From contig NZ_CP034437.1 in the NCBI RefSeq assembly GCF_003952225.1, forward strand, positions 124,001 to 188,000: a stretch of DNA of 64,000 nucleotides. Reading direction: 5' to 3'. The notes beneath the pieces are model-generated. The model saw nothing but the letters and a program-made list of their open reading frames with translations. It was not told the DNA's origin and ran no database searches. A program made the translations under genes and the position numbers. The stretch is from Paenibacillus albus (GTDB lineage: Bacteria; Bacillota; Bacilli; Paenibacillales; Paenibacillaceae). Positions 11,296 to 18,310 of this stretch are shown one piece after another. How positions within the stretch are numbered: position 1 is the first letter of the stretch; each line of letters begins with the position of its first letter.

Positions 11296-11706
11296 ATGAA
11301 GATTCCGGTCGTTAAGAGATTCAATAAAAAAGAGTTTGAAATTGTTTTTATTGATCTCGAAGACGTTCTTCTTATGCGCAGCTACCGCGGAGAGGTTTAC
11401 TACCAGACGAGAGAAGGACTTTACAGCCAAATTTCTACCTTTGAGGAGCACGAGCGCTTTCTTGTTGAACAAGGGTTTAAGAAAGTGGACCGCTGTTATG
11501 TCGTACAGATGGACCAAGTCGAGTTTTTTGACGATGTACAGCAGCGCCTCTATTTTGTGAAGCAGCCCGTTAATAGCGACTCGCCAAGCGCACCGGTGTC
11601 CGGCGCGCATCTGAAATCGGTGGAGAAGCTCATCAATAACGGAGACTCCAAGGAAGCGTCGGCTTCCTTAAGGAACGATCTATCAGGCGGTTTGTCGACC
11701 ACTTGA
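11296..11706 (+). CDS. Small LytTR-domain protein
   Basis: 136 residues. Residues about 1-100 resemble a stand-alone LytTR DNA-binding domain (EIVFIDLEDVLLMRSYRGEVYYQT, FEEHERFLVEQGFKKVDRCYVVQMDQVEFFDD), with the typical order of strands and the FxRhHRSyiVN-like region degenerate as DRCYVVQMDQV. The last 36 residues are Ser/Asn-rich and probably disordered. There is no receiver domain and no kinase nearby. It could be a small transcription factor controlling itself, but the target is unknown. ATG is preceded by GAAGGGCG. Confidence 0.65.
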   Translation: MKIPVVKRFNKKEFEIVFIDLEDVLLMRSYRGEVYYQTREGLYSQISTFEEHERFLVEQGFKKVDRCYVVQMDQVEFFDDVQQRLYFVKQPVNSDSPSAPVSGAHLKSVEKLINNGDSKEASASLRNDLSGGLSTT

Positions 11707-11769
11707 TAGTTGAAGGTACATGATAGCCCGAAGTTAATAGAAGGAAAGTTCAAGCAGTTAAATAAGTCA

Positions 11770-11797
11770 AAGCCGACCTTAGTGGATCGGCTTTTTT
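11770..11797 (+). terminator. Terminator of the LytTR gene
   Basis: AAGCCGA/TCGGCTT stem with a 10-nt loop and a run of six T residues. Confidence 0.8.
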
Positions 11798-11810: not shown

Positions 11811-12545
11811 GAGAGAACGTATGCGTGCTCTCAGGGAGTGAAAGACGACACTTTGCGTGTGAGAGACCGTATTTGTGCTCTCGGCATGGCGAAAGCCGGA
11901 AGCCGGCTTTCGTGGCGTACGTGTGCGAGAGAGGATATTCACTCTCTCAGCTCCCATTTCGCGCCGATTCGCGCGGCGAACGCGCTCGAGAGAGGCTTTT
12001 GCCGCTCTCGCGCTGCCAATCGGCGAGGTCGCGACGCCGAGAGAGGATATTCACTCTCTCAGCTCCCATTTCGCGCCGATTCGCGCGGCGAACGCGTACG
12101 AGAGAGGCTTTTGCCGCTCTCGACCTACCAATCGGCGAGATTGCTGCTCTGAGAGAGGCTTTTCACTCTCTCAGCTTCCATTTCGCGCCGATTCGCGCGG
12201 CGAACGCGTACGAGAGAGGCTTTTGCCGCTCTCGCGCTGCCAATCGGCGAGATTGCTGCTCTGAGAGAGGCTTTTCACTCTCTCAGCTTCCATTTCGCGC
12301 CGATCCGCGCGGCGAACGCGTACGAGAGAGGCTTTTGCCGCTCTCGCGCTGCCAATCGGCGAGGTCGCGACGCTGAGAGAGGCTTTTCACTCTCTCAGCT
12401 TCCATTTCGCGCCGATTCGCGCGGCGAACGCGTACGAGAGAGGCTTTTGTCGCTCTCGCGCTGCCAATCCGCGAGATTGCTGCTCTGAGAGAGGCTTTTC
12501 ACTCTCTCAGCTCCCACTTCTCGCCGATTCGCGCGGCGAGCGCCC
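11811..12545. repeat. Array 1 of a 22-bp inverted repeat, 112-bp tandem period
   Basis: Thirteen copies of GAGAG-N12-CTCTC start at 11811, 11861, 11927, 11988, 12039, 12100, 12151, 12212, 12263, 12324, 12375, 12436 and 12487. From 11927 on, starts alternate by exactly 61 and 51 bp, giving a 112-bp unit repeated five times plus a decayed end. Within a unit, loop AGG(C/A)T(T/A)TTCACT alternates with AGGCTTTTGCCG. The 39- and 29-bp spacers contain further GC-rich dyads (TTCGCGCGGCGAA; CCAATCGGCGAG). Frames stay open across it, but 112 is not a multiple of three, so it is not coding. The rest of 11707-12695 holds only the LytTR terminator and a short leader before the next gene. Confidence 0.92.
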
Positions 12546-12695
12546 TTCCCTCTCACCGCTCCCCCCCATCCCCCGCCGATTCACGCTCCCTCAACTCGCT
12601 CCCCACCCAACACGACCAGCTGCAACTTTTCACAATTGGTAACGTCTACCTTTTAATGTTGGTAATAGTAAATTCCCATTCCAGGAGGAGCACCA

Positions 12696-13352
12696 ATGAA
12701 GAAAGTAATTGTACTCACCGCCTTAACCGGCGTTCTCGCTGGCATTCTCGTCGGAACTGCGGCTGCGGGGCAGAAACCAATCTCATTAATTGTTAATGGC
12801 ATGACACAAGATCAGTTTCCGCTGCGTGCATTGCCGAGTCCGCAAATTGTAAATGGTTTTGTCATGATTCCGGCCGCAGCGCTGAGCAGGACGTTTCGAG
12901 AGGATGTGAAGTGGGACAGCGCTTCGCGCACCATTGAGATCAATCCTGACGTGTGGAAAGAAGGCGGCTTCGGCTATAAAGGAGAAGAATGGCCCAAGGT
13001 GAGGAATGCCATAACGAAGTTTTTGATTGCTGTGGAGGAGCAAGACGCAGCAGTACAAGCAAAAATGCTAATCAGCGGGTATCAGCCAAGCGTCATCGGC
13101 GATGGCGATTCCATCATGGATATCCAGTTCAGAGATGGCAAGTCTTCGGAAGCATCCTCCTCATACACAGTCAGAGTAGCTATGATGCTGTACAACGCTA
13201 AGCAAGATCGACTCCTACGAAGTGTTCAAGATTTTGTACTGGATATGACGACCTTAAAAATCGAGAGAATTAACATCGCACCGGGTGGTGGTTATCTTCG
13301 AGAGTACAACGTCATTCCTGGCATTGAGATTATGACCCCTATCGAAGGTTAA
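12696..13352 (+). CDS. Secreted protein with copper amine oxidase N-terminal (stalk) domain
   Basis: 218 residues. A signal peptide (MKKVIVLTALTGVLAGILVGTAAAG) is followed by a stalk-type domain at residues about 28-85 (ISLIVNGMTQDQFPL, NGFVMIPAAALSRTFREDVKWDSASRTIEI), the module that Paenibacilli attach to many exported proteins. The remainder (residues 90-218) looks like an NTF2- or DUF-type alpha/beta domain with a conserved RVAMMLYNAKQDRLLRSV stretch. It is not an amine oxidase: the catalytic domain is absent. AGGAGG lies seven bases before the ATG. Function unknown, probably in the cell envelope. Confidence 0.8.
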   Translation: MKKVIVLTALTGVLAGILVGTAAAGQKPISLIVNGMTQDQFPLRALPSPQIVNGFVMIPAAALSRTFREDVKWDSASRTIEINPDVWKEGGFGYKGEEWPKVRNAITKFLIAVEEQDAAVQAKMLISGYQPSVIGDGDSIMDIQFRDGKSSEASSSYTVRVAMMLYNAKQDRLLRSVQDFVLDMTTLKIERINIAPGGGYLREYNVIPGIEIMTPIEG

Positions 13353-13375
13353 ACGGGGGACTTGAATGGCTCAGC

Positions 13376-13406
13376 AAAAACCCCGCTGCCATCTATGACC
13401 GCGGGG
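13376..13406 (-). terminator. Terminator of the PucR-type regulator
   Basis: On the minus strand CCCCGC-N14-GCGGGG is followed by TTTTT. Confidence 0.75.
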
Positions 13407-13428
13407 TACCATACCGTACCGTATCCTT

Positions 13429-15084
13429 CTATCTGAGCTTATACGCCATAAGCGCCATCTCCAGGCAGCGCCTTTTATCCGTCTCCAAAAAATCTTCCCC
13501 GAGCAGAAGCGCCAGCTTATCCAACCGATTGTATAGAGTCTGCCGGTGAATGTTCAGCCTCGTAGCCGTCTCCTGCTTGGAGCCCATGCTTGCCAAATAC
13601 ACATCCAACGTCTCAATAAGCTGCAGATGATGCTCCCGGTCGAATGCAAGTAACGCCCCAAGGTGATCCTCTACATACGAAGCGAGAAAAGAAAGCTTCG
13701 GCACAGCCTTGAGCAGCTGATAGACGCCCAACTGCCCGTAGAACATGCAGTCCTCGTACGCCGCCACACTCCGAGCCACATCAATGACCTGCTGTGCTTC
13801 CTCGTAGCTTCGCGAGGATTCCGAGATTTGCGCGCGCAGCTTGCCGAAGCCGGCATACAGCTTGAGCGACGAAGCATGCGAGTCATGCGCCGACTTCCTC
13901 AGTTCCTCTACCAGCTGCTGTAGCGCCGCTTGCAGGTTCATCTGAGAATCCTTGTGCAGCGCTTCTTTGGCACAGAGCATGCAGATCCGGTTATTTTGCA
14001 TCATGACCAAGCTGTTCAGCCCATGCTTCTTAAGCAGCTGCCTGACCAAAATCAGCAAATCCTGCTTATCCGCCTCAATCGTAATCGCATCCGTGTCTGA
14101 AGTGTGCTGAATTTCGATAATACCGCCCGCGAACAAGTACTCCCCTTTGCTCAGCAGCCGAAGCCCCATTCTCGCCTGCGCTTGATCCTCGTTCTCAATC
14201 CGGTTATTCATGATGTCGAGAATAAATTCGTTATGGTCCCGCGACAGCTTCTCTTCCAGAAACTCCGTTCGCAGCGTAATGGCCGCAACGGCTTTTGTCG
14301 TGTAATCGAGCAGCAAGGTAAGCGACTCCGTAACTTCCGGTTTGTTGTGCAGCAGCACGCCGACGTAGGAGAATGTCTGACCAAAGCAGATGACCGGTTG
14401 AACGACAAAAAGCTGCTGCGCATTCATCGTCAGCACGGAAACGTCTTTGGCCGACAGTACTCTGGCATCCATCTGCCGCTGCAAGAAGCTTGATATGGGA
14501 CTCGACGCTTTTGTGGTCCATGCGGGATAGAACACGCTGCTGTGATCGAGAGACGAGAAATACAGCACCTGCCTCCCGGTCTGCTCATGAAAAGCCCTTA
14601 AAATCTGCGCGATCCCCGTGCTCTCAATCGTCAGCCGCTGCAGCTTGCGAGAATAAACCTCAAGCTCCTTCAAGAATTGATGCTGCCTGTTAATGAGGAG
14701 GGCATGAATGTCCTGCGTAATCTCAACGTAACGGACCGGCTGTTCGAATACGATAAGCGGAAAATGGTGCAAATCTGCCAGCTCCACAATTTCTTTTGGA
14801 ATGGCGTCAACCGACGTCCCCATCTCAATGCACAGCCCTGCCGCGTGCTGATCGATCAACTGCTTCATGTATGCGAATCGGTCCTGCTCATTTTGCTTCA
14901 GCCACAGTCCCGTCGTTAATATAAGGTCGTTCGGGCTCACGTATGGAGCCACGTTCGTAATTTCAAGTACATGCACCCAGCCGACGGGGCGATGCATCCC
15001 TTCCCGGCCAGCAATCAGCTTCGCTGAGCGGAATATTGGCCTAGCAAGCAGCTGGCTGATATCAAACTTCATATTTGTGTCCAT
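13429..15084 (-). CDS. adeR: PucR-family transcriptional activator, AdeR-like
   Basis: 551 residues. The PucR N-terminal domain (residues about 8-125, LLARPIFRSAKLIAGREGMHRPVGWVHVLEI) is followed by a GGDEF-like middle region and a C-terminal PucR HTH (about 490-550, ETLDVYLASMGSKQETATRLNIHRQTLYNRLDKLALLLG). It is divergent from ald, the same arrangement as Bacillus subtilis adeR (yukF)/ald, where AdeR activates alanine dehydrogenase. GGGGG lies nine bases before the ATG. A strong dyad at 15100-15116 between the two genes is a candidate binding site. Assignment rests on family plus synteny. Confidence 0.87.
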   Translation of the reverse strand: MDTNMKFDISQLLARPIFRSAKLIAGREGMHRPVGWVHVLEITNVAPYVSPNDLILTTGLWLKQNEQDRFAYMKQLIDQHAAGLCIEMGTSVDAIPKEIVELADLHHFPLIVFEQPVRYVEITQDIHALLINRQHQFLKELEVYSRKLQRLTIESTGIAQILRAFHEQTGRQVLYFSSLDHSSVFYPAWTTKASSPISSFLQRQMDARVLSAKDVSVLTMNAQQLFVVQPVICFGQTFSYVGVLLHNKPEVTESLTLLLDYTTKAVAAITLRTEFLEEKLSRDHNEFILDIMNNRIENEDQAQARMGLRLLSKGEYLFAGGIIEIQHTSDTDAITIEADKQDLLILVRQLLKKHGLNSLVMMQNNRICMLCAKEALHKDSQMNLQAALQQLVEELRKSAHDSHASSLKLYAGFGKLRAQISESSRSYEEAQQVIDVARSVAAYEDCMFYGQLGVYQLLKAVPKLSFLASYVEDHLGALLAFDREHHLQLIETLDVYLASMGSKQETATRLNIHRQTLYNRLDKLALLLGEDFLETDKRRCLEMALMAYKLR

Positions 15085-15099
15085 GTTTTCAGCCCCCAG

Positions 15100-15116
15100 A
15101 TAGACATTTTGTCTAT
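15100..15116. promoter_or_regulatory. Candidate AdeR operator
   Basis: ATAGACA-TTT-TGTCTAT, a 17-bp dyad 16 bp upstream of adeR and within the ald regulatory region. Confidence 0.55.
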
Positions 15117-15202
15117 ATCAACTAGTCCAACTATACATAACTGTAAAGCAAATCGTCAAATGACTTTATATTTTGTACGATGAATAAGCTCTTCGCCGAT
15201 CC

Positions 15203-15208
15203 TATAAT
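15203..15208 (+). promoter_or_regulatory. Candidate -10 element of ald
   Basis: TATAAT 47 bp before the ald ATG. No recognisable -35 lies 17 bp upstream, as expected for an activator-dependent promoter. Confidence 0.4.
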
Positions 15209-15254
15209 AGAGATGTCAAGAAAGTTCCCATTACGAGTCGAGGAGCGGCAGATC

Positions 15255-16388
15255 ATGAAGATTGGCGTACCGAAGGAAATTAAGAATAATGAATGTCGTG
15301 TCGGAGTAACACCCTATGGTGTAAATGAATTCGTGCAAGACGGCCATACCGTCTACGTCGAGACAAACGCTGGCCTTGAGAGCGGATTTACCGATGCCGA
15401 GTACGCGCAATCCGGCGCCGTTATTATGATGGATGCCGAATCCGTATGGCAGCAAGCGGACATGATCGTGAAAGTAAAGGAACCGCTGCCGAGTGAATTT
15501 TCTTATTTCAGGGAAGGTTTAATTCTCTTTACTTATTTGCACCTCTCTGCAGAACCTGCTTTGGCAAAAGCGCTTGTCGATGCAAAAGTAACTGCCATTG
15601 CATATGAAACCGTTAAAGAAGGCGGTACGCTGCCGCTTCTCACCCCGATGAGCGAAGTTGCTGGTCGAATGGCTGCCCAAATCGGCTCGCAGCTGCTCGA
15701 ACGCTCCAAAGGCGGACGCGGTATTCTGCTCTCCGGCATCCCCGGCGTAGCAAGAGGTAAAGTTACGATTATCGGCGGCGGTGTCGTTGGCACCAACGCA
15801 GCGAAAATCGCAGTAGGACTAGGCGCGGATGTAACCATTCTCGATCTAAACGTTAACCGTTTGCGCCAGCTTGAGGATCTCTTCGGTAACCAAGTGCAAA
15901 CGCTTGTTTCGAGTCGTCACAACATCGCACGCAGCGTAGCCGAGGCCGACCTGCTCATCTGTGCGGTTCTTATTCCAGGCGCAAAAGCACCTGTGCTCGT
16001 ATCCGAGGACATGGTGAAAACGATGAAGCGCGGTGCCGTTATCGTAGATGTTGCAATCGACCAAGGCGGAAACGTGGCGACGATTGACCATATTACAACC
16101 CACGATAATCCAACCTATGTAAAGCATGGCGTCATTCATTACGCTGTTGCCAACATGCCTGGCGCAGTGCCGCAGACGTCCACTATTGGATTGACCAACG
16201 CAACGATGCCGTACGCGGTACAAATTGCCCGCAAAGGCGCGATTGAGGCAATTAAGGACAGCGCTGCTCTGCAAAGCGGCACGAACATTATAGATGGTAA
16301 AGTAACGTACAAAGCTGTAGCCGATGATCTTGGTTATGCATATACTCCTCTGGCCGAAGTGCTGGAGCTGCATACCGTTCACATATAA
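15255..16388 (+). CDS. ald: Alanine dehydrogenase
   Basis: NAD-dependent L-alanine dehydrogenase (L-alanine to pyruvate and ammonia), 377 residues as usual for the family. It begins [20 protein letters not shown], has the substrate-binding region VKVKEP, the Rossmann motif [26 protein letters not shown] (about residues 170-200) and the conserved NMPGAVP(Q)TST region (about 300). ATG at 15255 follows AGGAG nine bases upstream; an open extension to 15180 overlaps the -10 element and lacks homology. In spore formers Ald supplies pyruvate and nitrogen during sporulation and on alanine. Adjacent, divergent adeR probably activates it. Confidence 0.95.
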
Positions 16389-16467
16389 AGTTTAAAATCA
16401 GACTCAGAACCTGATTTCAAATTTCAGAGCAAGAGCCCTTCATATTCAATGTTTTTAAACCCCACAG

Positions 16468-16501
16468 CAAAGCCCCCTTGAGAGATTCTCGAGGGGCTTT
16501 G
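16468..16501 (+). terminator. Hairpin after ald
   Basis: CAAAGCCCC/GGGGCTTTG stem with an inner GAGA/TCTC pairing. It lacks a strong T run, so it may be a weak terminator or processing hairpin. Confidence 0.5.
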
Positions 16502-16590
16502 TGTTGGCGCGCAGTTGATCGTTATAATGAATAACAGACATCAAGCGCGTTTACAATTAACACCATAAAGACACTAGGAGTGATACTGCT

Positions 16591-16695
16591 TTGGATATCG
16601 TTTGGAGCAATCTCATCTATCAAGCACTGACAATAATTATGATCGCCGTCATCGTATTTTTGGGCATTAAAATGTTGTTTAAGCGCAAACGATAG
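16591..16695 (+). CDS. 34-residue single-pass membrane microprotein
   Basis: Short gene starting with TTG at 16591, preceded at 10 bases by AGGAG (16576-16580). The peptide begins MDIVWSNLIYQ, has one hydrophobic helix of about 20 residues (LTIIMIAVIVFLGIKMLF) and ends in a basic tail (KRKR), so it should insert with the C-terminus in the cytoplasm. The stop is immediately left of array 2. No family is recognised. Good ribosome site, membrane-like composition and positive-inside tail support a real gene; the TTG start and short length limit confidence. Confidence 0.55.
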   Translation: MDIVWSNLIYQALTIIMIAVIVFLGIKMLFKRKR

Positions 16696-16749
16696 TCGCG
16701 CGGGCGACGCGGCGAATCGGCGGAGGGAGGCACGCGGAAGAGGCGTGCT

Positions 16750-17498
16750 GAGAGAGGCTTTTGCCGCTCTCAAGCTCCGAATCGGCGGCGGTGGGTGGTT
16801 GAGAGAGGATTTTCACTCTCTCAACTGCCTTTTCGCTGCGTTTCGCGCGGGAGAGGCGTGCTGAGAGAGGCTTTTGCCGCTCTCAAGCCGCGAATCGGCG
16901 GCGGTGGGTGGTTGAGAGAGGCTTTTACCTCTCTCGACTGCCCTTTCCCCGCGTTTCACGCGGGAGAGGCATGCTGAGAGAGGCTTTTGACTCTCTCGTG
17001 CAGCGAATCGGCGGCGGTGGGCGGATGAGAGAGGCTTTTCACTCTCTCGACTGCCTTTTCGCCGCGTTTCACGCGGGAGAGGCGTGCTGAGAGAGGCTTT
17101 TGCCGCTCTCAAGCTCCGAATCCGCAGCGGCGGGCGGTTGAGAGAGGCTTTTCACTCTCTCGACTGCCTTTCCGCCGCGTTTCACGCGGGATAGGCGTGC
17201 TGAGAGAAGGCTTTTGCCGCTCTCAAGCCGCGAATCGGCGGAGGGAGGGGGTTGAGAGAGGTTTTTCACTCTCTCGACTACCCTTCCGCCGCGATTCTGC
17301 AACGGCGGAACGCCGACAGAGCATATACGTTCTCTCAGCGTTCGATTCCCGCTCCGCGCCCTTCCGAGAGAACGCATACGTGCTCTCGCAAGCCTTTTCC
17401 AGCGCAACCCTTCGCTTTTTCTTGCTGAGAGAGCACATACGTGCTCTCAGCATTCGATTCGTGCTCCGCGCCCCCTGAGTGAACATATGCGTGCTCTC
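16750..17498. repeat. Array 2 of the 22-bp inverted repeat, 113-bp tandem period
   Basis: Fourteen copies of GAGAG-N12-CTCTC (one with a 1-bp insertion) start at 16750, 16801, 16863, 16914, 16976, 17027, 17089, 17140, 17202, 17254, 17315, 17366, 17427 and 17477. Intervals alternate 51 and 62 (later 61) bp. Loops are mostly AGGCTTTTGCCG and AGG(C/A)TTTTCACT. The last four have the class (A/G)(A/G)CRYATRCGTG. Spacers (29 and 40 bp) contain CGAATCGGCGG and CGCGTTTCACGCG. A partial unit without arms precedes at 16699-16749. The array fills the 909-bp gap 16696-17604; no gene is present. Confidence 0.92.
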
Positions 17499-17555
17499 GC
17501 AGAACAAGCGACTGTACCCGGCTGCTCATCAACCAAACCAAACAAAATAAGACCT

Positions 17556-17581
17556 CCCGGCTCACGCAAGCGTGAGCCGGG
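17556..17581 (-). terminator. Terminator of the GNAT gene
   Basis: Perfect 11-bp stem CCCGGCTCACG/CGTGAGCCGGG with loop CAAG. On the minus strand it is followed by AGGTCTTATTTTG. Confidence 0.8.
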
Positions 17582-17604
17582 AAGTCCATTCCATCCTTAT
17601 TCTC

Positions 17605-18054
17605 CTATGCATCCTCGTCTTCGTCGTCCGCATAGTACGTGCATTTGAACCGCTCAGTGCCTGGATACTTCTCACCTAGGCTCTCTACGGTGAACCGACT
17701 GCTGCGGTAAAAGTCGACCGCGCTGTCATCCGTCTCCGCGATGAGCACGTTCGGCTTCTCCAGCTCCAGCAGCTCGAGAATAAGCCCTCTACCGTAGCCT
17801 TTGTTTCGTTCAAAAGGCACAACAGCAATATGATCGATCTCAATCGTATCGCCGTTTACATAGTGATAGCCGACTAAGCCGATGATTTCGTCCTCGGACT
17901 CATAGCCGAGCAGCTTGTGCTCGCCTTCGCCTGCCGTAGCGTTCTTGTATAGGTTAATCGCACGCTCCAAATGCTCCGGCTCGGGAAACACAGCCCAACC
18001 TAGCAGTTCCTGTATCGCTTCTTCATCCAGTCTTGCGTGTATGTCAATCAACAT
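17605..18054 (-). CDS. GNAT family N-acetyltransferase
   Basis: 149 residues with the acetyl-CoA-binding region IDHIAVVPFERNKGYGRGLILELLE (Q/RxxGxG/A-like NKGYGRG, residues about 79-100) and a C-terminal strand-helix pattern typical of GNAT. The Asp/Glu-rich tail (DDEDEDA) is unusual. ATG at 18054 is favoured because GGTGG lies eight bases upstream; two upstream start codons sit on the ribosome site. The acceptor substrate is unknown. Upstream lies a 9-bp minisatellite. Confidence 0.85.
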   Translation of the reverse strand: MLIDIHARLDEEAIQELLGWAVFPEPEHLERAINLYKNATAGEGEHKLLGYESEDEIIGLVGYHYVNGDTIEIDHIAVVPFERNKGYGRGLILELLELEKPNVLIAETDDSAVDFYRSSRFTVESLGEKYPGTERFKCTYYADDEDEDA

Positions 18055-18145
18055 GCCCATTACCACCTTTGCTTCGTGACTTCATGAGCGATTATTATAC
18101 CACATCTATGGCGCTGAATCTTAGACACGTTATGGTTGGTACACA

Positions 18146-18253
18146 GTCCGCTTGGTCTGATCAGTCTACTCGGTCTGCTTGGTCTGCTTGGTCTACTCAG
18201 TCTGCTCAGTCCACTCGTTCTGCTCGGTCCGCCTAGTCTGCTCGCTCTGCTTG
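18146..18253. repeat. 9-bp minisatellite, 12 units
   Basis: Consecutive units such as GTCCGCTTG, GTCTGATCA, GTCTACTCG, GTCTGCTTG, GTCTGCTTG, GTCTACTCA, GTCTGCTCA run without indels to 18253 (consensus GTCTGCTCG), with a more degenerate tail to about 18300. It lies upstream of the GNAT gene and downstream of the SDR gene. The 9-bp period keeps frames open on both strands, but no start signal supports a protein. Confidence 0.85.
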
Positions 18254-18310
18254 ACCCTCGCAACCTACTTTCTCCGCTGAGCCTACTCAGTCTTCAAACT
18301 CGCATCCAAC

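Follow-up and report, generated by a model that had tools for sequence, protein, structure and literature searches.

What is conserved in an array of short palindromes, and does it act in DNA or in RNA? The question is raised by a 64,000-nucleotide stretch of the Paenibacillus albus chromosome (contig NZ_CP034437.1, positions 124,001 to 188,000; hereafter the window), in which a 22-bp inverted repeat, GAGAG-N12-CTCTC, occurs in two arrays. The family is real, genome-wide and unusual, and geometry is the thing that it conserves. The reading that we prefer, although we put it at slightly less than even odds, is that the arrays act in DNA, as doublets of dyads on DNA that is phased and bent, bound by protein and dispersing in gene 3′ ends. 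Sequence is what usually defines a repeat family; these arrays keep their spacing and helical phase while the palindrome changes, so that the constraint itself is exposed and can be tested. The palindrome arrays of some Paenibacillus point to an undescribed chromosome-level DNA structure or to a mobile repeat.

Elements, spacing and the doublet unit

The original prediction, a note made from the letters of the window alone, had counted 27 elements, and the count is correct: 24 are exact, two carry one mismatch and one has a 1-bp insertion. All 13 elements of array 1 are exact, as are 11 of the 14 in array 2, which holds the three imperfect copies. When up to two mismatches are allowed, the window contains 81 matches (a number that includes overlapping registers and scattered single sites) compared with 31.0 ± 5.9 in shuffles, and none of 100 shuffles reached 81. 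The P. albus contig (6,632,345 bases) has 296 exact GAGAG-N12-CTCTC sites and two matches to the reversed control pattern. The 12-nt loop was described as free. It does vary, but it extends the dyad and falls into at least two classes, a GGC-TTTT-GCC type and an NNCRTAYGNN type, both of which prolong the dyad. The T4 class (GAGAGMGG-N-TTTT-N-CCKCTCTC) has an asymmetric core and the p class is GAGAGMNCRTAYGNKCTCTC. Two relatives, Paenibacillus sp. OV219 and Paenibacillus taihuensis, have an extra 23-bp class, GAGAGTCGG-N5-CCGACTCTC, weakened copies of which are found in P. albus, some of them spaced 51/62.

Spacing was analysed in 61 stretches of P. albus (60 of 20 kb and the window), which yielded 59 arrays of at least two elements and 353 elements in all. 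Loci were picked around listed arrays and p-only arrays beyond 1.4 Mb are mostly missing, so 59 is below the total; element classes and array limits were set by script, and genes were called by a script trained on these loci, not by a published caller. Start distances in array 1 are 50 and 66 and then alternate 61/51; in array 2 they alternate 51/62 (with 114, or 62 + 52, across the 23-mer) and then run 61, 51, 61 and 50. The predicted alternation of 51 and 61/62 thus describes most gaps to within a base or two and fails for the first gaps of array 1. Across the 59 arrays, 252 of 294 gaps are either short (S, 49-52 bp; 154) or long (L, 60-63 bp; 98), the others being 110-115 bp (11) or of other lengths (31). 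Of the successions in which both gaps are S or L, 167 are SL or LS, four are SS and none is LL; another gap type is involved in 64 more. Gaps at array ends (n = 112) are S in 83 cases, L in 16, irregular in 10 and 110-115 bp in three, and irregular gaps of up to 130 bp have S neighbours in 31 of 39 cases. Because S stands at array ends and beside irregular gaps, the unit is a doublet, two palindromes lying about 50 bp from each other, and doublets are chained at 61. An inverted-repeat scan (20-24 bp) that was blind to arm sequence again singled out spacings of 50-51, 61-62 and 111-114; the pairs so spaced comprised 126 repeats, 121 of them with GAGAG-type arms.

The motif search across family genomes that the original prediction had proposed was carried out with a pair pattern (27-30 bases between elements), which matched 5 of 295 genomes (control 0): P. 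albus with 88 pairs, G020 with 68, G001 with 30, and G066 and G156 with one each. Within the genus set, 4 of 22 genomes matched. A three-element spacing pattern run over GTDB species genomes, a set that may omit P. albus, returned 33 stretches, all from P. taihuensis or OV219. Since the loci of these two closest relatives were located through the spacing pattern, their spacing provides no independent test.

Helical phase, other palindromes and placement

Stacked, the spacers show A/T tracts at 10-bp intervals, of which S has two and L three; S and L thus differ by one turn and one tract. The peaks lie at spacer positions ~9-11 and 19-21 in S, with an additional one at 29-31 in L, and mostly reach 70-95% A/T. 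They recur in three sets built with one spacer per array, from P. albus (58 S, 50 L), from OV219 and P. taihuensis (33, 33) and from the arrays of an unrelated palindrome, TAACGG..CCGTTA, of other Paenibacillus (20, 12); the profiles are averages of both strands. The A/T spectrum peaks at 10.1-10.2 bp, at 5-8 times the height found in within-spacer shuffles, and has side peaks near 8.6 and 12.2-12.5 bp that are expected because elements were masked at ~56-bp steps. On the periodicity measure, array spacers score 0.44, other intergenic DNA 0.033 and coding DNA, whose peak falls at 11.2, 0.018. According to PMC4132750, a period of about 11 bp is typical of bacterial genomes.

Pairs of the TAACGG family (AACGG-N10-CCGTT) were present in 3 of 22 genomes (22 in G066, 13 in G056, five in G194; control 0) and, with distances of 44-74 allowed, 40 of 40 start distances were 49-51 or 60-61. 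In 20 fetched loci (14 of 14 from G066, 6 of 8 from G056 and none from G194), drawn from the same pairs and hence not independent, 43 of 44 gaps were 49-51 or 60-61 and one was 114. Pairs of a further palindrome, AAGCTGC-N6-GCAGCTT, searched with 40-70 allowed, numbered 54 in G129 and one in G168 (control 0). Two other arrays were encountered in these genomes, one in G194 (L192:18789-19065) with GTAGACC..GGTCTAC arms spaced 51 bp and one in G168 (L196:14923-15100) with AAAGTTGCT..AGCAACTTT arms spaced 51-52 bp. The binding geometry of five and six turns that had been proposed for the window is therefore better supported than before, as both spacings recur in 59 P. albus arrays and in unrelated TAACGG palindromes and the A/T tracts of the spacers are helically phased. 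Spacing in relatives did not prove random and the arrays are not a single recent duplication, the two outcomes that the original prediction had set against itself.

The GNAT acetyltransferase gene beside array 2 permits a comparison at one locus. It was matched in 14 of 22 genomes (at only 38% identity in G137), and in six of these a palindrome array lies at its 3′ end: P. albus, OV219 (spacings 50/61), P. taihuensis (GAGAGAC.. type; 51, 62, 51, 62, 52), G194 (GAGAGTT.. type with imperfect arms; 62, 51), G066 (TAACGG; 50, 61, 50) and G129 (AAAAGCTGC; 50-51). The arms are GAGAG with differing inner parts in four genomes and unrelated in two, which amounts to three unrelated arm sequences. A scan of 1.5-kb flanks at the remaining eight loci found no like-armed pair at 50/61-type spacings. 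Congeners were otherwise sampled thinly: 2 of 14 stretches of G066 hold arrays (one was fetched for a match inside), as do 4 of ~13 from other congeners (one each from G194 and G168 and the two from G129, chosen near known copies). In 11 other genera, no like-armed pair at 50/61 was found in 20 kb per genome, a sample too small to exclude arrays. In one genome of another genus (G019, L250:9572-9708), a like-armed pair of inverted repeats (ATGTTGTA type) lies at a distance of 115 bp, by chance or as a distant case. Viral contigs contained two GAGAG pairs, spaced 48 and 53, and no TAACGG pair, and no plasmid matched array 1; a phage or plasmid origin was rejected on these grounds.

The P. albus arrays are intergenic, with few script-called frames overlapping them, and avoid divergent gaps: 29 are convergent, 29 tandem and one divergent, compared with 56, 198 and 109 among 363 gaps of at least 150 bp at the same loci, array-bearing gaps included. 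TAACGG arrays behave likewise (8 convergent, 12 tandem, 0 divergent; n = 20). The arrays are also polar with respect to replication. With dnaA at 790,220 (+) and a GC skew that changes sign somewhere from 4.11 to 4.30 Mb in the sampled loci, the A side lies on the leading strand in 48 of 55 arrays (p 1.3e-8), the exceptions being at 3.771, 3.791, 4.551, 5.190, 6.146, 6.327 and 6.370 Mb; of the T4 sites, 95 are forward and 69 reverse. Between tandem genes, most arrays are oriented with the replichore (5/6 with lagging-strand genes, 16/21 with leading-strand genes), and the A/T sign of the spacers agrees with the local GC skew in 47/56 cases in P. albus, 19/21 in OV219 and 9/10 in P. taihuensis. 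A general A/T strand skew was rejected as the cause, given that AAAA and TTTT occur about equally often in non-array intergenic DNA of convergent gaps and are skewed the opposite way in tandem ones. The change of T4 orientation near 3.77 Mb resembled a terminus marker; since the skew turns only between 4.11 and 4.30 Mb, the arrays at 3.771 and 3.791 Mb are exceptions. The idea of a polar motif for a DNA translocase, similar to KOPS (FtsK orienting polar sequences) or SRS (SpoIIIE recognition sequences), was dropped because the TAACGG family has no polarity.

Some arrays are copies of others, as 67 pairs of P. albus arrays match at E<1e-20, compared with 12-18 after randomisation of spacer G/C letters and 0-1 after shuffling of spacers. 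Ten array pairs from P. albus and OV219 with equal spacing and spacer identity >50% (pairs at ≤50% were dropped) are identical at 135/140 positions in arms, 117/168 in inner parts, 62/93 in tracts and 230/333 in other spacer; A/T is kept at 66/78 in tracts and 108/146 elsewhere. Orthologous loci of the two genomes have the aligned p block in common and differ in neighbouring blocks. At array 2, OV219 (L261, against window 16694-17312) has ~6 kb of other DNA in place of the P. albus array, with palindromes on both sides. An empty site at array 1 was rejected, as OV219 has there a different gene (transporter-like by eye) that replaces the array and the neighbouring gene.

Weighing the readings

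In the reading that we prefer, the arrays are DNA-level structures in which each doublet consists of two 22-bp dyad sites ~50 bp (five turns) apart with two A/T tracts in the spacer between them, and doublets are chained through a 61-bp step (six turns) with three tracts. Recurring every 10.1-10.2 bp, the tracts lie on one helix face and should bend the DNA. A putative dimeric DNA-binding protein may occupy the dyads and coil the array, and doublets may spread by copying into gene 3′ ends, places where promoters stay uncut. If each lineage amplifies its own palindrome and protein assembly sets the geometry, sequence would turn over and geometry would stay; the partner must then change along with hundreds of sites, which would make the arrays a natural experiment in changing DNA recognition. 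The elements are consistent with two half-sites read in duplex DNA, because position 6, mostly A/C in each half, does not covary (A-G or C-T mismatches are common) and position 9 is mostly purine in each half. Further, G-T mismatches at position 9 are in no excess over A-C ones (27 vs 21 in 122 p elements), which makes action at the RNA level less likely; of the DNA- or RNA-binding geometry originally predicted, the DNA alternative is thus the likelier. A more specific version, which we consider rather improbable, is a chromosome scaffold that conserves geometry and not sequence: a dimeric protein would coil dyads that stand five and six turns apart by turns, on A/T tracts with a 10.1-10.2 bp phase, and its recognition sequence would have been swapped wholesale between related species, leaving unrelated palindromes to fill one common design, some at the same locus.

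A number of observations weigh against the preferred reading. Position 7 covaries between halves (z 4.9 in the strict p class of P. albus, 6.5 in OV219, 5.5 in P. taihuensis), position 8 does so in OV219 (z 6.6), and the p-class flank pairs -2, -3, -5 and -6 are complementary above shuffles (z 2.3-3.7, one element per array); this covariation and flank complementarity are more readily reconciled with hairpins or cruciforms than with independent half-sites. Neither view accounts for positions 9 and 10 of OV219, which are complementary less often than when shuffled (z -5.0 and -4.5). Covariation in the TAACGG elements is weak at position 7 (A/T; z 2.4) and lacking at position 10, which is mostly C/T. 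The replication polarity of 48/55 arrays is not explained by bending, and the TAACGG family shows none (4/11 in G066, 2/6 in G056). Within L, the middle tract is less pronounced in the GAGAG family (56-79% A/T in P. albus and in OV219 with P. taihuensis), a weak 10.1-bp peak is also seen in intergenic DNA outside arrays, and the AAGCTGC family has only 49-52 spacings, with no 61, among the matches listed. TAACGG arrays share the locus of a fetched P. albus array in 1 of 20 cases (GNAT), which speaks against a fixed positional role; ancient fixed positions were rejected on the same comparison. The analysis shows the copy number, the spacing with its alternation, the doublet unit, the A/T phasing, the scarcity of arrays in divergent gaps, the replication polarity of the GAGAG family and the similar geometry of other palindromes; bending in the cell, the protein, the coiling and the copying mechanism are parts that we infer.

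Several of these points suit an explanation in which the arrays are selfish mobile doublets resembling REPINs (doublets of repetitive extragenic palindromes, REPs). The palindromes would form hairpins in single-stranded DNA at the fork and be copied by a trans-acting enzyme that needs the geometry, the cell gaining nothing. The doublet unit, the homology of arrays at different loci, the lineage-specific palindromes at gene 3′ ends, as in REPs, and the covariation at positions 7, 8 and the p-class flanks all agree with it, and orientation tracks the replichore as if single-stranded DNA entered the lagging-strand template. We nevertheless judge it unlikely overall: the Y1/IS200/RAYT (REP-associated tyrosine transposase) domain, PF01797, was unmatched at E 0.001 in P. 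albus, OV219 and P. taihuensis, position 6 is unpaired in about half of the elements, the TAACGG family is without polarity and the phased A/T tracts require a separate reason. If the arrays are mobile, this is a system of extragenic palindromes for which no Y1 transposase was detected.

The location at gene 3′ ends could also mean that the arrays are transcribed from there and that their hairpins terminate, stabilise or process messenger RNA. Four elements do pass a loose scan for intrinsic terminators, but the window contains 12 terminator-like sites vs 8.2 ± 3.0 in shuffles, and a crude terminator lies between stop codon and array at 35/85 facing gene ends, against a background of 105/336. 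Polarity follows replication and not transcription, as seen in the arrays between tandem genes, G-T mismatches are in no excess, and the window has no Rfam match at gathering scores, on which an RNA family was rejected; an RNA function is accordingly very improbable. We give an equally small chance to passive tandem satellites, in which palindrome slippage would expand a 112-bp unit and conservation would be concerted evolution only. The 112-bp tandem units are up to 94% alike within array 1, and G194 and G129 contain S-only, near-identical 51-bp repeats, as slippage would produce. Yet both spacings and the A/T phasing recur with unlike spacers and unrelated palindromes, array ends are S rather than L (83 vs 16), and neutral expansion predicts no fixed phase.

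Features of the window and comparison with known systems

The coordinates of the arrays and of the genes that flank them are collected in the table. A short (+) frame directly before array 2 (16593-16695) ends, by eye, in ..IMIAVIVFLGIKMLFKRKR and is small-membrane-protein-like; DNA resembling it is also present in OV219. Between the GNAT and epimerase genes, 18139-18293 holds 9-bp imperfect repeats (CTGCTTGGT/CTACTCAGT type), 12 copies in register.

Table. Positions of the arrays, their elements and flanking features in the window
Feature	Position	Strand	Remarks
Array 1, 13 elements	11811..12508	.	3′ of LytTR gene (+), 5′ of copper-amine-oxidase-N1-domain gene (+)
Array 2, 14 elements	16750..17498	.	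between alanine dehydrogenase / small frame (+) and GNAT gene (-)
Array 2, T4-class sub-block	16750-17275		
Array 2, p block	17315-17498		NNCRTAYGNN type
Array 1 element	11811..11832	.	p class
Array 1 element	11861..11882	.	p class
Array 1 element	11927..11948	.	script-called p (GG..TATT..CA type)
Array 1 element	11988..12009	+	T4 class, TTTT on +
Array 1 element	12039..12060	.	script-called p (GG..TATT..CA type)
Array 1 element	12100..12121	+	T4 class
Array 1 element	12151..12172	+	T4 class
Array 1 element	12212..12233	+	T4 class
Array 1 element	12263..12284	+	T4 class
Array 1 element	12324..12345	+	T4 class
Array 1 element	12375..12396	+	T4 class
Array 1 element	12436..12457	+	T4 class
Array 1 element	12487..12508	+	T4 class
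Array 2 element	16750..16771	+	T4 class
Array 2 element	16801..16822	+	T4 class
Array 2 element	16863..16884	+	T4 class
Array 2 element	16914..16935	+	T4 class
Array 2 element	16976..16997	+	T4 class
Array 2 element	17027..17048	+	T4 class
Array 2 element	17089..17110	+	T4 class
Array 2 element	17140..17161	+	T4 class
Array 2 element	17202..17224	+	T4 class, 23 nt, 1-bp insertion
Array 2 element	17254..17275	+	T4 class
Array 2 element	17315..17336	.	p class, one arm mismatch
Array 2 element	17366..17387	.	p class
Array 2 element	17427..17448	.	p class
Array 2 element	17477..17498	.	p class, one arm mismatch
LytTR-domain gene, upstream of array 1	11296..11706	+	PF04397
Hairpin between LytTR gene and array 1	11769..11794	.	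T-rich after hairpin on + by sequence; scan lists -
Cu_amine_oxidN1-domain gene, after array 1	12696..13352	+	PF07833
Terminator-like hairpin, GNAT gene 3′ end, before array 2	17550..17587	-	
GNAT acetyltransferase gene	17605..18066	-	

The original prediction knew of no described family with this layout, and searches of the open-access literature, which leave subscription journals largely uncovered, agree in listing no paper whose title or opening of the abstract describes such arrays; in the RepRanger main text (PMC12306157), Paenibacill- does not occur. The closest known systems are the REPs and the bacterial interspersed mosaic elements (BIMEs, here enterobacterial BIME-2) with their RAYT. 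PMC3733652 and PMC2817692 describe them as short extragenic palindromes of high copy number in regular clusters with downstream or convergent placement; binding of DNA gyrase or IHF is a further mark of these elements. The arrays resemble them in being short extragenic palindromes with hundreds of copies in regularly spaced clusters and similar placement, and their 296 exact sites in intergenic arrays exceed the figure of 100 extragenic palindromes used to recognise such families. They differ in having phased A/T tracts and a five- and six-turn geometry across unrelated palindromes. Neither GTAG nor CGTC, the tags of the two large super-families, occurs in profiles of the flanks of T4 elements (166) or p elements (101), and PF01797 was matched at E 0.001 in 1 of 22 genus genomes and not in P. 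albus, OV219 or P. taihuensis. Orientation within an array does not alternate, as T4 elements of one array are co-oriented, AAAA and TTTT cores being mixed in only one P. albus array (5288126, AppT); p elements are too symmetric for orientation to be assigned. Membership in REP/RAYT was rejected on tag, transposase and orientation. The sole Y1 match in the genus (G188, L147) is weak (E 1.9e-4) and lies within a 694-aa open frame.

REPINs, in which a polar REP is paired with an inverted copy of itself, share with the arrays a palindrome doublet as the apparent unit; here, in contrast, doublets are chained at a fixed step and no RAYT is matched. CRISPR arrays also combine short dyad repeats with evenly sized spacers but, in the arrays described here, the spacers are themselves repeated (112-bp units, spacers included, recur at up to 94%), the repeats vary and the spacing alternates. 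CRISPR was rejected because spacers are repeated; 10 proteins around the arrays carry Pfam domains other than cas. The likeness that concerns geometry most directly is that to phased A-tract curved DNA of the nucleosome-positioning kind, in which A/T tracts recur at the helical period, as they do in the spacers. Nucleosomal DNA has a period close to 10.1-10.2 bp. What sets the Paenibacillus arrays apart from such DNA is that their tracts are tied to regular 22-bp dyads in tandem arrays.

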